From Actinomycetota bacterium (GTDB lineage Bacteria > Actinomycetota > Actinomycetes > Nanopelagicales > Nanopelagicaceae), in NCBI GenBank assembly GCA_026392825.1, contig JAPLBF010000007.1, positions 1 to 64,000 on the forward strand: a stretch of DNA of 64,000 bases, written 5' to 3'. Under the pieces are notes generated by a model that made no database searches, was not told where the DNA came from, and saw only the letters and a program-made list of their open reading frames with translations. This document shows positions 55,708 through 64,000 of this stretch, piece by piece. Both the position numbers and the translations under genes were made by a program. Position 1 is the stretch's first letter. The number at the start of each line of letters is the position of its first letter.

Positions 55708-56460
55708 TTAGTCACTGTTACGAAGGATTGAGAGCAATCTCAAAACTTCCATATACAACCAAACAATTGTGACCATCAAACCAAATGCCATACGCCATGA
55801 CTCTTGTTGTGGTGCCCCAGCAGCGATAGTGCGTTCGATCTGATCGAAATCAAGTACCAAGAAGAATGTTGCGAGTGCAACAGCTCCTACAGCTACTAGT
55901 AAGCCTGTCGCTCCACCTGGACGTCCAGTGAACAAAGTGATGAGTGAGAAAACCAAATAACCCATCAACGCACCAAGCATGATGCGAGTGAACTTAGGTG
56001 TTACGCGAATCTTGCCGCTGCGGTAGGCAACCAAGATTCCACCGAATGCACAGAGCGTTCCAATTACAGCCTGGCCAACAATGCCTGAATAAGCTTCGTT
56101 GTAAATACGGCTAATGGTTCCGAGTGCAAGTCCCTGTGCTGCTGCATAAGCAACAATCAGAGGCACGCGAACTTTCTTTGAAAACACGTTGACCATTGCA
56201 AGAACAAAACCACCGAGGAAGCCAACAAGTGCGAGCCCTGGGCTATTAGCACCCCATGCAAATGCACCGACTGCGACCAAGACTGCAAACAAAGTAGCAG
56301 TGCGCATCACAACATCGTCCATGGTCACACGACCGGTGCGAAGTGAAGACGCTGCAGGTGCTGCGTAAGTTGTTTCTAGTGAATCGTTTTCAAGTCGTGT
56401 TGGATCCATTTGAGCAAAACCACGGTTGGAACGAGTTAGTACAGGATTTGAACTGCGCAC
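55708..56460 (-). CDS. Bax inhibitor-1/YccA family membrane protein
   Basis: LAGFVLAMVNVFSKKVRVPLI... multi-TM, AAAQGLALGTISRIYNEAYSGIVGQAV. Confidence 0.9.
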   Translation of the reverse strand: MRSSNPVLTRSNRGFAQMDPTRLENDSLETTYAAPAASSLRTGRVTMDDVVMRTATLFAVLVAVGAFAWGANSPGLALVGFLGGFVLAMVNVFSKKVRVPLIVAYAAAQGLALGTISRIYNEAYSGIVGQAVIGTLCAFGGILVAYRSGKIRVTPKFTRIMLGALMGYLVFSLITLFTGRPGGATGLLVAVGAVALATFFLVLDFDQIERTIAAGAPQQESWRMAFGLMVTIVWLYMEVLRLLSILRNSD

Positions 56461-56544
56461 TAATTTCCCTTTCTAGGAAATCCGCCCCCTTCGGGGTGGG
56501 TTAAGTAGTCCTATTTAAAACCATAAACCTGAGAATTTCATTCC

Positions 56545-56617
56545 AGAGAGCTTTCCACGCTCAACTTGAGCGCCCCTAACCGAGTTAAAGCCCGATCTGG
56601 GAACTCTTAAGCTCTCT
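56545..56617 (-). other. three-way-junction inverted-repeat element at the 3' end of the tail-protein gene
   Basis: 9-bp AGAGAGCTT/AAGCTCTCT enclosing CGCTCA/TGAGCG and GAGTT/AACTC hairpins. Confidence 0.55.
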
Positions 56618-56696
56618 ATTTCTTCTTAAACCCCGCAGGGCACTTGGGGTTAACGGCTGTCACTTTCTTGGTTACCTTGCCTTTGACGCAGGTAAT
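56616..56696 (-). repeat. C-terminal tail module copy 1
   Basis: ITCVKGKVTKKVTAVNPKCPAGFKKK*. Confidence 0.9.
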
Positions 56697-58361
56697 GGTT
56701 CGCTTTACGGTCGGTTTTAATGCGGGAGCAGTCGCTATCGGTGTAGCAGTTGGACTCTCTGGATTGATAGGTGTCGTGCTTTCAGGAGCCTTTGAATTCT
56801 TCGCTCCAATTATTTTCAATTTAATCTCATTTGCGGAATAGTGAAATCCGCTGGCCTTGAAGAGAACATAGCCATCTTTGATCTCTAGAGTAGAAACTTC
56901 GACACTTTGGGAAGTATTTTCGGTGGCGGAAAATATCTGGATCTGAGCTTTAGCCTGAGATAAATCATTTCCCCATAAGCACTTTGCCACGGTGGTTGAA
57001 ACTCGTAACTCGTAAAACCCAGATACTACTTTTCCAGTTGTGTCGAGATGCGTTGATGCTAGATTGTAATCAAGAGATTCATTTTCCTTGTTCCACTTTG
57101 GTGGCGATGGGACTAATAAGGTTGCATTTGAAGACAGCACTCCGCTAGGTTCAATTCTTGAAGAACATTTAGTCAAATCAAAAAAGTCCTGACCCAACGG
57201 ATTCATTGTTTTGAAATTCCACACAGAAACGGGGCTCTTCGGCAAAATTGGGAAGTATTTTTCTAATTCACGCCAAATGACATAACTCTGGTTATCTTCC
57301 GAACTAAAACCATTGTGCAAAGTCATGTCAGCAAAACCATTACAATTTGGATTCGGATTAGCATTTTGGGGAATAGGGTTAAAGCATTGTGTTCGGCTTA
57401 AATCCAATTCAATAGGCTTCAGACCGGGCGATTGTGAAGCCGCAAATGCCGAGTTCCAAATCTTTCTACCGAGCACAAAGTTTTCGAGAGTGGCTGGTCG
57501 ATAAGACTCTGCAGAATTAATCAGGATAGGAGTTCCCTGAAACGTTAAATCTGCCGATCCATCTCCAAGTTTCTTCATAAATATTTCAGTGTTTAGATTT
57601 CGCGCAGTAAACCAGTCAATAATTCTAAAAATATCCAGGTGGGCTTTAAGATTCACAACAATTTTAATTGGTTTGAAATTTGTGAAATCTTCCCTTTGCG
57701 TGCAATATTTCTTTAGCGCAACCGAATCAAAATAGCATCGCGTTTTTGAATTAGGCTCTGAAAGAAGGGCAAGGTAAGGAATCACTCCATCTAATTCTGC
57801 TTTTGTTATGTCTTGCGTTGAATCAGACATTGGAACTATTGCTATTTCAGTCGGTGCGGTTGAGTAGAGAAGTTCTCTATCATTTCCTCCTCTGAATATC
57901 GTAAAAGTTAAAAGAAATTTTGTTCCACCGCTGTGTTCAATTCCCGGAAAAGTCCAAATACTACTTCTGGCAGATTTTGGAAGAATCGAATCTTTCGCAG
58001 GATTTAAGGAATACACGCTGTCGGTAAACTTGTAATTGACCTTTCCTGGGAGGGTTTCATAATCTTCATCTACAGGAAAATAAGACACTACTTTCCCTTC
58101 GATCCAACGTGACTGTGCATCTTGGTATGCAACGCTCTTTATACAATCTGTAGCATCCGTCGGAGTGCAGGCCGGGAAAACACCTCTAAAAGCTTGGCCA
58201 CTTGGGATTCTTGAAGGCCATAATGTGAAATAAGGCTCGGGAATGTCGCTGTTAGAAACTCTCCACTTTGCTTCGTACTGATTGGCTGCCTGGAGAGAGG
58301 GCATGCCTACCGTAAGTAAGGACACAATCAAAAGGCTAATTAGTTTAAGTGTCGACTTCAC
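56616..58361 (-). CDS. secreted protein with shared C-terminal domain and CVKGK...KKK tail
   Basis: Signal peptide MKSTLKLISLLIVSLLTVGMPSLQA; C-terminus ITCVKGKVTKKVTAVNPKCPAGFKKK. Confidence 0.8.
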   Translation of the reverse strand: MKSTLKLISLLIVSLLTVGMPSLQAANQYEAKWRVSNSDIPEPYFTLWPSRIPSGQAFRGVFPACTPTDATDCIKSVAYQDAQSRWIEGKVVSYFPVDEDYETLPGKVNYKFTDSVYSLNPAKDSILPKSARSSIWTFPGIEHSGGTKFLLTFTIFRGGNDRELLYSTAPTEIAIVPMSDSTQDITKAELDGVIPYLALLSEPNSKTRCYFDSVALKKYCTQREDFTNFKPIKIVVNLKAHLDIFRIIDWFTARNLNTEIFMKKLGDGSADLTFQGTPILINSAESYRPATLENFVLGRKIWNSAFAASQSPGLKPIELDLSRTQCFNPIPQNANPNPNCNGFADMTLHNGFSSEDNQSYVIWRELEKYFPILPKSPVSVWNFKTMNPLGQDFFDLTKCSSRIEPSGVLSSNATLLVPSPPKWNKENESLDYNLASTHLDTTGKVVSGFYELRVSTTVAKCLWGNDLSQAKAQIQIFSATENTSQSVEVSTLEIKDGYVLFKASGFHYSANEIKLKIIGAKNSKAPESTTPINPESPTATPIATAPALKPTVKRTITCVKGKVTKKVTAVNPKCPAGFKKK

Positions 58362-58418
58362 ATGACAATTTTAGTCGCAGAATAGAAGTTTACAAGTGAG
58401 AAAGACGTTGGTTATTCT

Positions 58419-58499
58419 CTATTTCTTCTTATACCCCGCAGGGCACTTGGGGTTAACGGCTGTAACTTTCTTGGTTACCTTGCCTTTGACGCAGGTAAT
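58419..58499 (-). repeat. C-terminal tail module copy 2
   Basis: ITCVKGKVTKKVTAVNPKCPAGYKKK*, nearly identical DNA to copy 1. Confidence 0.9.
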
Positions 58500-59429
58500 C
58501 ACTTGAGGAAGTTTCTTATTTAATTCAGCAATTGCGGCATTTGCCTCGTCTAATTGTGATTGAACTTGGCTATTCGAGAGTTTAGCGTTATCTAATTTTT
58601 CGATTAAAAATGAAATTGTCTCGCGTTCTGAACTTATTTTTTCACTTTGGGAATCCATTACATCAATCGCTGCCGAGAAGGCAAGGCTTGCGTATCGCCC
58701 GATGAGCACAAAAAGGGTCAAGGAAGTTCCATCAGCGCTTTTCTTGGAGCACTTAATGCTTCCCGATCCGCCGGTAATTATGCCAACAATCGTTACCTGA
58801 GTTGCGGTGATATTCAAAACTGGTGCTCCGCTATCGCCTTTGCACGAACTAGCTTTAGTCGAAGTCATGTAGGCCGAGTTGGCAACAATAGAATTGAAAT
58901 TGCTGAAATTACCTTCTAAAGATTTTGGAGTAGTTACAACTTCAGTTGAAGTATCTCCATAGGCACCATACCCAAATGCTGTCAAACTAACTTTTGAACT
59001 TCTAAATGCAGTTAATTGTTTTTCAGAAGCAATAACTACGGGTGAACGAAGAGTTTGCGGCTTCCCTAGGGTTAAAAAAGCTAAATCATCTTCATCTACC
59101 ACGGGAGTATTCTTAAATGTAGAGGTAGTTTGAACCGTGGATATTTTATCTTCACTTGTAATTGAGGATAAAGCGCTGCCTGCTATTCCTACATAAACAT
59201 TCCTAGTAACCAATCCATTTACGTCGATTAAACAGTGCGCGGCTGTAACAACAATTGACGGCGCAATTAAAGCCCCCGAGCAAGTAGTACGCTGCGAATT
59301 ACCTCTATCTATAAGAATTGGTACTACGAATCCATTTCCAGTCGCGTCATCTCCGTTTTCAACAGCGTGAGCCTGAATAGGAAGCAAGGTGAGAACCATT
59401 ATCAAGGCTGTCCAAATTCTGGTTTTCAT
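58419..59429 (-). CDS. secreted trypsin-like (S1) serine protease with coiled region and CVKGK...KKK tail
   Basis: TAAHC, DDLAFL, GDSGAPVLN; tail ITCVKGKVTKKVTAVNPKCPAGYKKK; signal peptide from MKTRIWTALIMVLTLLPIQAHA. Confidence 0.88.
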   Translation of the reverse strand: MKTRIWTALIMVLTLLPIQAHAVENGDDATGNGFVVPILIDRGNSQRTTCSGALIAPSIVVTAAHCLIDVNGLVTRNVYVGIAGSALSSITSEDKISTVQTTSTFKNTPVVDEDDLAFLTLGKPQTLRSPVVIASEKQLTAFRSSKVSLTAFGYGAYGDTSTEVVTTPKSLEGNFSNFNSIVANSAYMTSTKASSCKGDSGAPVLNITATQVTIVGIITGGSGSIKCSKKSADGTSLTLFVLIGRYASLAFSAAIDVMDSQSEKISSERETISFLIEKLDNAKLSNSQVQSQLDEANAAIAELNKKLPQVITCVKGKVTKKVTAVNPKCPAGYKKK

Positions 59430-59483
59430 TGCGAAAGAATAACGGAGCACACTAACTTTAAGAGTTCACGCGCTGCCTGCGAG

Positions 59484-59564
59484 CTATTTCTTCTTATACC
59501 CAGTCGGGCAGACGGGTTTTACCGCCGTTACCTTCTTTGAAAGCTTTCCCTTCACGCAGGTAAT
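59484..59564 (-). repeat. C-terminal tail module copy 3
   Basis: ITCVKGKLSKKVTAVKPVCPTGYKKK*. Confidence 0.9.
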
Positions 59565-60958
59565 GGTTGTCTTGGCATTAGCATCCTGGGTTAATTTGAT
59601 TCGAATTGTAGGAGCAGAAAACCCAAATCCATTTATATTAAAATAGTAAAACCCTGATAGTTTCTTGAGAGTTTGACTTACGACCGAACTTTTACCATCA
59701 GCTCTCAATATAGAGACCCTTGCAGATGCATTAGTTAATGATTTACCCCAAATGCAATGAGCTAACTTTTCTGAAACTACAAGGGAATAGGTTCCCTTGA
59801 ACTCTTCATTTGGGCGAATTAAATGTGGAGCGGCTAGCTGATAGGAGAGTTCTTGAGAACTTTCTATGTAAACCGGCGGGGTAGGAGAAAATTGAGTTGC
59901 GTTGGTGGCAAGGATTCCATCGATTTTTCCTTGAGAAACACATTCTGATGAATTGAATTTTTGTAAGTTTAGATTTCCTTCCCCACTTATCTTCCACAAG
60001 GAAGACGAGTCCGTGGCTATATTTGAGAGAAATGGCTCATACGCACTCCACATTTTCAATTCGCCATTCTCAATGCCGGCAGTCGCCGGCCAACGGCTCC
60101 CAAGACTTCTAGGATCCGGTAGCGACGCAGGAACGCCATTGAGTTTGGCCTTCATATACGGGTTTTCCCATACAGACAAATATTGAGATGCATTCATTAC
60201 CGCTATCGCAGAAGGCACTGTTAGTGGAGCTCCTGAGAAGTCAACAAATTCTCTAGAACTTGAGTCAACCCCATAAGTTATTTCAGGGTTCGTCGTTCTT
60301 GAATGCACCCAACCATTGAGGATTTGCTTAAGAATATTAACCCTGACTCTAATTTTAACCCCAGAAATACTTCCAAAGGAATCGTCGATTTTACCGCTTG
60401 GGATTCCACTATTTGAGGTTAGCCAATCATTTGTAGAGATTGGGTAAGATTAAAGTTCAAGAAAAGTCTAAAACTTGAACTGTGCCCTGTTTGCGATACC
60501 TTCCACATGGAGGTAGCTCCACCGGCAGGATAATTATTTTCTGGGTCAGCAGGCGTTGCTACTCTGTTCTTAATCACGAAACTGTTAAATGAACCTTTAT
60601 CTGACCCAACAAGGGGGACTCCTGTTGCGGGAATTGTCCAACTTGAGTCCAACTCAGCTTTTTTCCATTCTTGCGAATTGCTTACTCGATAACTCAATGT
60701 CTCTATGCAATCAGAATCTTCTGCTTTCACGCAGGGGATTAAGAATAAATTTGCACCGTAGTAAGAGTTATAACCTCTTTCGGTAAATTTGAATGATCGA
60801 TGGCCGACAGTAAAAAAGTCCGTCACTCCAATTTCCCCGATTCCAACCTTATAGACCTGTTCACCTGATGCCCCAGGAATCGGGGCAAGAGTGACGATCA
60901 ATAAGGTGGATAAGGGCAACAACACATAATTTCTAAATCTTTGGCGGATAAATTTCAT
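59484..60958 (-). pseudogene. tail-family secreted protein split by an apparent frameshift (ORFs 60419-60958 and 59484-60308)
   Basis: Downstream frame is open to 60449 and reads ...ISTNDWLTSNSGIPSGKIDDSFGSISGVKIRVRVNILKQILNGWVHSRTT..., continuing the paralogue alignment; overlap window 60419-60449. Confidence 0.7.
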
Positions 60959-60967
60959 AGATACTTC

Positions 60968-61048
60968 CTATTTCTTCTTATATCCCGCAGGACACTTTGG
61001 GTTCAGTGCCGTTACCTTCTTAGTTGTCTTGCCTTTCACGCAGGTGAT
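60968..61048 (-). repeat. C-terminal tail module copy 4
   Basis: ITCVKGKTTKKVTALNPKCPAGYKKK*. Confidence 0.9.
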
Positions 61049-62447
61049 CGACTTTTTATTCATTCCCTGGGATTGCTGTGTAATTTTTACTTTTATTACG
61101 GGGTTAGAAAAGTTAAAACCATAAGCAGCTAATTTCAACCATCCATCTTTTTCGTTTACCAAAGTCGTGGCAACTGAAGTTTGATCGCTGCCTGTAATGG
61201 AAACAGAAGCCGATACAGGAGCACTACTAAACCCATATAAACAGCGGGCAACTTCACTTCTCATAACTAAATCATAAGTTCCGGTTGCCAATGTAGAACC
61301 ATCGGGTAAGAAGTGCATTCCAGCTACTTTGTAACTTAGAGTCCCGTCAGAAAATGAGGGAGACCCGCCTTCATAACCCATTGAATTTGTGGTTACGATT
61401 CCAATCACTTTGCTTTTATCGTTAAGGCAATTGTTATCGTTACCCATAGTTACGGATTGAATTGTCCAATAAGTATTACTTCCGATTGCTTTGTCACCAA
61501 CTTTAGGCCGGAAATAATCAATGTATTCAAATATTGATCCGCGATTAGAGCTCTGCGGAGTAGTTTGATTTGATTGACCATTATTCTGCCACCATTGATT
61601 TTCCTGAGCATTAAGGTCGGATCTATTTTTGACATATCCCATAGTTGGAACTTTTACTGGTTCACCTTGCAACGTCACCACATTATTTGTCGCACTAAAT
61701 CTATCAATTGAGATAACAGGATCTTTTAATCTGCCACGAAACCATCCAGCGATCGAATTAACAACCCGCACCTTTAGTCGAAATGTTTTTTGTGCGTCAA
61801 AATCAATCTGAATGCCCGCCGAACCGTTCTCATTTAAGAAATATCTACCGTCACTTCCCCAGGCAATACGATTTGTCGCCGGTAGAGCTGGATCAATTGT
61901 CGGTCCGCGAAAATCACCTGGAACTTCGAGAAATGGGGTTATAGAGAAAGAAATGTCATTTATACCGAATTTTGAGGCGTCTGGCCAATATCCCAAGCCA
62001 TAGCTTGAACTAACGAGATATTTAACCTTTGAACCTGCATCAATATTGGATTCATCCCAAATTAGCGCAGTCGAACCGCCCGGGTAACCTAATTGTTTAT
62101 CAGATGGAATGCTCATATTACTTCTCAGGTTTCGCAAAAAATTTGCGGATTTGAAATTCTTACCATCAATGGCAATCTCAAATGATTCAATACAATTCTC
62201 TTGATCTTTACTTCGACAAAAATCTAGAACTGCATTTCCGCCATTCACCACGTTTATCCGTGCCAGTTACCGCTGCTGGCTGTATCGCTAACGAAGATAC
62301 CGTCGCTGCCGCTTCTTCTGCGATAGTAAAAACGGTCTCTCCCGGATTACCGATTCCCCGAAAACTAAACGCTTCATTCGAACCAAAAGCGGCGGTAGGG
62401 AAAAGCAAGCAAGCGGAACGTGAAGTTATCAAAAGCCGTCTGAACAT
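60968..62447 (-). pseudogene. tail-family secreted protein with apparent frameshift between signal-peptide ORF (62208-62447) and main ORF (60968-62251)
   Basis: MFRRLLITSRSACLLFPTAAFG signal-like start in one frame, VVNGGNAVLDFCRSKDQENCIESF in the next frame matching paralogue GANLFLIPCVKAEDSDCIETL. Confidence 0.65.
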
Positions 62448-62500
62448 CTTGACCCTCTTCCTTGGTGCAATTTGAAGTCAATTATCTGATTATAGATTTG

Positions 62501-62573
62501 TGCCCCGAGTGGGGGTCGAACCCACACTGGGAGGATTTTAAGTCCTCTGCCTCTGCCATTGGGCTATCGGGGC
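62501..62573 (-). tRNA. tRNA with TAA anticodon (Leu by codon), class-I length
   Basis: GCCCCGATAGCCCAATGGCAGAGGCAGAGGACTTAAAATCCTCCCAGTGTGGGTTCGACCCCCACTCGGGGCA; 7-bp acceptor, 5-bp anticodon and T stems, 5-nt variable loop; CCA not encoded. Confidence 0.88.
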
Positions 62574-62586
62574 CATGCGATAAGGG

Positions 62587-63297
62587 TCAGAGTCTACTTG
62601 CTTTTTTTATCACCGAATCCAACGCTTTTTCAGTTAATTTGCCTGTAAAAGTGTTCTGTTGGCTGGGATGGTAACTGCCAACGATTTTTCTTTTGATTCC
62701 ATCTGGGCCAATAAATGTGGCTGTTGCTCCGTGTCCAAATTTAGGTTTTGGTTTTGGGATATCGCATCCGAGTTCTGTAAGAGTCGCAAGAAGTGTGGTC
62801 CAAGCAAGATTTCCAAGTGCAAGAAATGATCGTGCTGTCGGCATCAAAAGTGCGATTTCATCTTTGTAGAAAGGTGCGCAAGTGTTTTTCTCTTCGGTGC
62901 TTGGTTTGTTATCTGGTGGCGCGCAACGCACGGCGCAAAGGATTCGAGTATTAATCAGCTGCTGACCATCATCTTTGCTTTTACTTGTGGGAATTTTGGC
63001 TAGGCCATTTTTATGTAGAGATTTGTATAGCCAATCCCCTGATGAATCACCGGTGAATACGCGACCGGTGCGGTTAGCACCGTGTGCACCTGGGGCAAGG
63101 CCGAGGATTACCAATTGCGCATTGGCGGGGCCGAAACCTGGTACTGGTTTACCCCAGTACTTTTCATTTTCATAGGCTTTGCGTTTTACAACTGCGACTT
63201 CTTCGCGCCATTGCACAAGGCGTGGGCATTTTTTACATTTAACAATTGCAGTATCGAGCAGGTCTAAAGATTTATACAAGCGACCAAGCCATTCCAT
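62587..63297 (-). CDS. uracil-DNA glycosylase (family 5/UdgB-like)
   Basis: GFGPANAQLVILGLAPGAHGANRTGRVFTGD, GSYHPSQQNTFTGKL. Confidence 0.88.
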   Translation of the reverse strand: MEWLGRLYKSLDLLDTAIVKCKKCPRLVQWREEVAVVKRKAYENEKYWGKPVPGFGPANAQLVILGLAPGAHGANRTGRVFTGDSSGDWLYKSLHKNGLAKIPTSKSKDDGQQLINTRILCAVRCAPPDNKPSTEEKNTCAPFYKDEIALLMPTARSFLALGNLAWTTLLATLTELGCDIPKPKPKFGHGATATFIGPDGIKRKIVGSYHPSQQNTFTGKLTEKALDSVIKKASRL

Positions 63298-64000
63298 CGA
63301 GAATGTCAGATTCAGATGCGACAAATTCTGAAGCGCCGGTTGCGCGCATAATGCGAGAGAGAACTAGTGAGCCAGCAGAAATTACATCTACGCGGCCTGG
63401 GTGCATGTAACCGAGTGCTTCGCGTTGGGAACGATCCATTTTGATAAAGGATTGTGAAACCTGGTGCACTTTCTCTGCTGGGATATGTGAAAGATGTATG
63501 GCGTATCGGTCGTATTCAGGTAGATCTAGCGCTGCAGCTGCAACTGTTGTCGCGGTGCCGGCTACGGCGATAAGGGTTTTAGCTTTGGTGATTGGTACTA
63601 ACTTTGCGGCTTGTGCGATTGCTTCATCAATATCTTCGGTTGCCGATGCGACCTGTCCTGGATCAGGTTGATCACCGGTGAAGTGACGCTCTGACATACG
63701 AACACAACCGATGTTCACGCTCTTGGCTGCTTCGACAGATTCGGTTCCAAATACAAATTCGGTTGAACCGCCGCCGATATCAATAACCAGAAATGGGCCA
63801 GCTGATGCGGGCAGGTCCTTGGTTGCTCCCATAAAAGATAGGCGCGCTTCTTCATCACCAGAGATAACTTCGGGGTGAATTCCTAAACGCTCGAATACAC
63901 CCTCGATAAAGAGGTCGCGGTTGGTGGCATCGCGAGTGGCGCTGGTTGCGCAGAATCTAATCTTTTCAACACCGCGCTTAGCGATCTCGATTGCGTAGAT
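63272..64000 (-). CDS. Ppx/GppA family phosphatase, partial (N-terminus outside window)
   Basis: Frame is open to window end (IYAIEIAKRGVEKIRFCATSATRDATNRDLFIEGVFERLG...); FLVIDIGGGSTEFVFG. Confidence 0.92.
   Translation of the reverse strand: MYAIEIAKRGVEKIRFCATSATRDATNRDLFIEGVFERLGIHPEVISGDEEARLSFMGATKDLPASAGPFLVIDIGGGSTEFVFGTESVEAAKSVNIGCVRMSERHFTGDQPDPGQVASATEDIDEAIAQAAKLVPITKAKTLIAVAGTATTVAAAALDLPEYDRYAIHLSHIPAEKVHQVSQSFIKMDRSQREALGYMHPGRVDVISAGSLVLSRIMRATGASEFVASESDILDGMAWSLV

Follow-up and report, generated by a model that had tools for sequence, protein, structure and literature searches.

Four minus-strand genes in the window, the 64,000-nucleotide stretch of actinobacterial DNA analysed here, end in the same 27-residue module, TITCVKGKxTKKVTAVxPKCPxGYKKK (56616-62447). 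The module recurs on exported proteins encoded by Nanopelagicales genomes and by viral contigs, and we think it somewhat probable that it is a non-covalent envelope-retention module, which would hold exported proteins through a putative ligand. The four copies in the window were matched with E-values of 7e-10 to 4e-13 (for one genome), and are arranged as follows.

56616..58361, minus strand: gene 1, exported CL0-family protein of 581 aa with the module at its C-terminus (ORF, clustering, AF2)
56619..56699, minus strand: module copy 1, TITCVKGKVTKKVTAVNPKCPAGFKKK (module search)
58419..59450, minus strand: gene 2, exported trypsin-like protease of 343 aa with a coiled stalk and C-terminal module (ORF and Pfam)
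58422..58502, minus strand: module copy 2, identical to copy 1 at 76 of 81 nt (module search, matching 58422-58499; DNA alignment)
59484..60308, minus strand: gene 3 (broken CL0 gene), C-terminal part bearing the module (ORF, comparison with a relative)
59487..59567, minus strand: module copy 3 (module search)
60419..60958, minus strand: gene 3, N-terminal part carrying the signal peptide, in another frame (ORF, comparison with a relative)
60968..62251, minus strand: gene 4 (broken CL0 gene), C-terminal part bearing the module (ORF, comparison)
60971..61051, minus strand: module copy 4 (module search)
62208..62447, minus strand: gene 4, N-terminal piece in another frame (position and sequence; unmatched by the relative L154)
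62500..62573, minus strand: tRNA-Leu (taa), edge of the hotspot (tRNA call)

A first-pass annotation of this DNA had reported near-identical tails on four minus-strand genes, joined to one trypsin-like protease and to three proteins of another family. Both observations were borne out. Gene 2 encodes a trypsin (Pfam E 7e-16) with TAAHC and GDSGAP motifs in its protein sequence, and genes 1, 3 and 4 belong to one family, CL0. Genes 3 and 4, however, are not intact, each being broken into two ORFs. Gene 3 (60958-60419 and 60308-59484) changes frame and is missing about 33 codons of its relative, and the two parts of gene 4 (62447-62208 and 62251-60968) lie in different frames; with one genome as the basis, the splits reflect either decay or assembly faults. 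The fold of the gene 1 ectodomain found no credible match in the PDB. Weak Pfam matches to the lectin phloem protein 2 (PP2) were obtained for 10 of 47 CL0 members (best E 4e-5), the match lying under Pfam's cut-off in the one member checked. Judged from these matches, the CL0 ectodomain, including that encoded at 60968-62251, is possibly carbohydrate-binding.

Among 61 diverse copies of the module, Cys4, Gly7, Cys20, Pro21 and Gly23 were invariant, position 24 was either Tyr or Phe, and the net charge ranged from +5 to +9. A 39-residue construct was modelled by AF2 as a beta-hairpin with a mean pLDDT of 93-94 over residues 11-39, and the same hairpin was obtained in full-length gene 1 at a pLDDT of about 85-92, following a linker below 50. 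The module is predicted from these models to fold independently on its linker, and this property, together with the five invariant residues and the charge, argues for retention. We infer a single disulfide between the two cysteines, as initially proposed: the invariance of both residues fits such a bond, but VKOR, as disulfide oxidant, was not found in the eight genomes searched (set G000, G461-G464, G468-G470, G373), which counts against the bond and against retention alike. Exported proteins of these genomes carry conserved Cys pairs although VKOR was not found in them.

We collected 138 distinct module-bearing ORFs, nearly all of which end 0-3 residues past the module. By sequence, their upstream parts form 21 clusters of up to 74 members, and include trypsin, LRR_5, RCC1, kelch, fn3 and Ig-like domains (Pfam). 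The linkers that precede the module are PTPTP-rich or consist of long Ala/Lys/Glu helices, and the attachment of so many unrelated proteins through such stalks supports retention. Signal peptides, called by a simple home-made script, were predicted for 18 of 18 carriers in the closed genome G463 (1.34 Mb read), as against no module in the 1,141 proteins of that genome without a predicted signal peptide; 16 of the 18 carriers belong to CL0, and the 18 are not independent observations. Carriers make up 16 of the 87 predicted soluble exported proteins of G463. The contrast between proteins with and without signal peptides favours retention, tempered by the script and by the predominance of one family. 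The earlier suggestion of a transferable module on exported proteins thus stands, on the 21 upstream clusters, the signal peptides of the G463 carriers and transfer at the DNA level (see below), and the cytosolic carriers that would have contradicted it did not appear among the G463 proteins.

The position of the module within its protein is not fixed. KKK lies at the very C-terminus in most copies and is nearly constant, and in the window's own genome, which is 97% complete, all ten copies are C-terminal (10/10). The first-pass view that the tail is always at the very C-terminus is correct for that genome but fails across the order: in locus L027 the module directly follows the signal peptide, ahead of the main domain, and in L158 three copies lie toward the C-terminal end with linkers between them. 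By their coordinates, ORFs of 749-774 aa in four further genomes (G462, G464, G469 and G470) contain three to five module matches. Because it may follow a signal peptide or occur in several copies, the module behaves as portable binding domains do, and not like a sorting signal that is cut off.

To place the module among described elements, 58 copies were compared with Pfam and NCBIfam. No family matched the module, and weak matches were isolated to single members; sequence and fold searches of the PDB with the module returned nothing significant. A known curated domain or solved structure was rejected on this basis, and with it the possibility, raised at the outset, that the tail is a known domain. 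Within open-licence papers, we found none that prints or describes the motif, and no account of how acI actinobacteria retain surface proteins. Short C-terminal and wall-binding modules are already known as a kind; this one matches no library searched. It resembles LPXTG/sortase and CTERM-type signals in being a short C-terminal element with a basic end on many unrelated exported proteins, but differs in its two invariant cysteines and in its ability to be N-terminal or multi-copy. The profile of 61 copies contains no LPXTG-like motif and no hydrophobic segment, so that the basic end alone is shared, in agreement with the first-pass statement that the tail is not LPXTG. Sortase (PF04203) was absent from 16 of 17 near-complete relatives, while three control genomes were positive; the single sortase among the 17 genomes of the family lies at G585:C2:680875-681237 (L163). 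A sortase signal was rejected from the profile, the non-terminal copies in L027 and L158 and this near-absence of the enzyme.

LysM, choline-binding, GW and SLH modules bind the wall non-covalently, and are portable, repeatable and attached by linkers to many exported ectodomains. The present module shares these habits, but has no sequence relation to them in Pfam or NCBIfam and is a Lys-rich hairpin of 27 residues. LysM occurs exactly once per genome in 16 genomes, which, with the scarcity of sortase, is in keeping with a retention role for the module. SHOCT is likewise a short, mostly C-terminal domain found on many different proteins, with its function unsettled (PMC3581485); the module differs from it in lacking a Pfam match, in its tie to exported proteins and in being almost confined to one order.

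This distribution was established with a profile built from the ten copies of the window's genome, a search proposed in the first-pass annotation. At least one copy was present in 209 of 298 Nanopelagicales genomes, with up to 24 in one. Outside the order, a first draw of 299 genomes from the phylum gave weak partial matches only, and a second of 399 gave a full-length match in two related genomes and one weak partial match. In 199 genomes of the order to which those two belong, no further carriers were found. In the two related genomes (L256, L257) the module sits on a small exported protein that, judged by eye, looks like the neocarzinostatin family. Carriers among named records include Ca. 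Planktophila lacus MMS-21-148, IMCC26103 and IMCC26077, and some few with the title Acidimicrobiia or Acidimicrobiaceae have the module on one protein family; the taxonomy of carriers rests mainly on the order-wise search, as titles of MAG records are often wrong (Bifidobacterium, Streptomyces). Matching coordinates identify G462 as P. lacus, which places the window in the Planktophila genus group. The module is thus almost confined to Nanopelagicales.

Copy number varies within the order. Two closed genomes of the same genus, G461 and G468, have no copy, and others, closed ones among them, keep only one or two. No CL0 was found in near-complete genomes with 0-3 copies, as searched, and in six closed genomes 91 of 93 CL0 domains were followed by the module within 600 bp. 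In the 1.2 of 1.35 Mb of G468 that was read, there was no homolog of any of the 18 G463 carriers, while 70 of 87 other exported proteins of G463 have homologs there.

A scan of IMG/VR yielded 39 contigs with the module (L319-L357). In all 39 the carrier begins with a Sec-type N-terminus and ends in the module, an occurrence that supports retention. The viral carriers comprise a protein of about 562 aa, encoded by many of the contigs, and a set of trypsin-like proteases; the proteases are related to host tail proteases, including that of gene 2, and distant relatives of the 562-aa body occur in a few genomes of the order. Where checked, the neighbouring genes are viral. In L338 (1595-9083), for example, a terminase large subunit lies directly upstream (PHROG, E 1e-14) and a CHAP endolysin downstream; L349 has WhiB, L341 a collagen-like tail fibre and L342 a tryptophan halogenase. 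The GC content of the viral loci is 0.29-0.37, compared with 0.47 in the window. The contigs appear to derive from phages of Nanopelagicales-type hosts. The 27 residues used as a query, a sequence that a low-complexity filter may have masked, found no match in isolated phages and plasmids, and two viral tail proteins found none in annotated phage records.

The tail genes of the window occupy a hotspot (55708-63324) between a BI-1-like gene and the tRNA-Leu with its upstream gene, the tRNA bordering the cluster. In G463 two other tail genes lie between the same flanking genes, and a matching tRNA sequence lies beside other tail genes in L096, L138 and L132; L096 contains a 74% identical relative of gene 1. 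The same flanks with different content are thus found in the window, G463, L096, L138 and L132. This arrangement is like the replacement flexible genomic islands of aquatic prokaryotes, fixed loci with varying surface genes and homologous recombination at the edges, for which a link to phage pressure has been proposed (PMC4033161). Here, in distinction, the differing cassette genes share a 3′ module, and viral contigs carry it too.

The DNA of copies 1 and 2 is nearly identical from the second module codon to about 6 nt past the stop, between unrelated flanks that are at background, as expected from the recent spread or conversion suggested at first pass. The module therefore moves between unrelated genes, by a module-sized conversion in genes 1 and 2. 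Elsewhere, syntenic pairs have differing gene bodies and a downstream flank that is 0.80-0.97 identical; in several, the first two thirds of the tail differ as the body does, and the last third matches the flank (0.74/0.70/0.96, then 0.94). These values are suggestive of replacement of a gene with most of its tail, any crossover falling at the stop or within the last third, and no more than suggestive because the last third is the best conserved by default. The tail as usual 5′ breakpoint of gene swaps was rejected, since in the clearest pairs it is less alike than the downstream flank.

Under the retention model, a Sec-exported protein would end in a flexible or coiled stalk tipped by the module, or exceptionally would carry it after the signal peptide or in several copies. 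Outside the membrane the module would form its hairpin, probably closed by the Cys-Cys bond and presenting a conserved aromatic residue and a net charge of about +8, and would bind non-covalently to a widespread surface constituent, anionic or polymeric. In this way proteases, repeat proteins and beta-rich surface proteins would be kept on the cell, by a module replacing the sortase/LPXTG route that nearly all these bacteria lack. Phages of such bacteria would add the module to their own exported proteins, which would be retained on the infected cell. The first-pass proposal of a sorting, anchoring or wall-binding module survives in part: anchoring is plausible and fits an order mostly without sortase and phages that use the same module, but the sorting form is disfavoured by the lack of a hydrophobic segment, by L027 and L158, and by the failure to find a partner enzyme.

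The main rival is docking, in which the hairpin would bind one specific surface protein, a receptor or scaffold, as dockerin binds cohesin. A small, conserved, modular element with many partners would suit this role, and the absence of all 18 G463 carriers from G468 beside the 70 homologs kept fits loss of a shared partner. However, a single family accounts for 16 of these 18 proteins, and comparison of G463 with tail-free G468 revealed no partner gene in the part read, a large block of core genes being unseen. Closed genomes with one or two copies would still need the receptor, and phages of several kinds use the module. We regard docking as unlikely, and a general surface component is favoured over a dedicated machine by those low-copy genomes and by phage use. 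Retention is itself challenged by the two closed genomes that live without any copy and by the bias of KKK to the very C-terminus, which a simple binding domain does not explain. That bias, and the near-constancy of KKK, would be accounted for if a dedicated enzyme or exporter recognised the tail and removed or attached it. Such processing is less likely again: the N-terminal copy in L027 and linked copies in L158 do not suit it, no hydrophobic segment is present, sortase is nearly absent, and carriers already have Sec signal peptides.

A basic, disulfide-capable, terminal module might instead mainly serve its own protein, as a folding cap, protease protection or solubility aid, with no shared ligand; conservation of the same residues across unrelated domains and viral proteins, set apart by disordered or coiled linkers, makes this very improbable. 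We give least credence to the idea that the repeated 3′ DNA persists mainly because it offers a patch for recombination by which surface genes are swapped. The conversion between genes 1 and 2 and the last tail third that matches the downstream flank, where body and first two thirds differ, would agree with it, but that third is best conserved in any case, and non-syntenic tails share on average only 67% DNA identity while the protein is conserved. Retention accommodates a module that can be relocated and multiplied, and that genomes keep in one or two copies.

The acI actinobacteria, the most abundant bacteria of fresh water, dominate lake plankton. With a single recognisable module, sequence could be used to predict much of their surface proteome (16 of 87 predicted soluble exported proteins in G463), and the module ties variation at the surface to phages, which appear to use it as well. 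More tentatively, and we consider this wider picture possible but doubtful, Nanopelagicales may have a nearly private, sortase-independent display system, in which one hairpin holds many exported proteins, under pressure from phages their genes are shuffled as variable surface cassettes at fixed hotspots, and the anchor has been captured by phages, which place proteases and other proteins of their own on the cells they infect, for rival exclusion or lysis.
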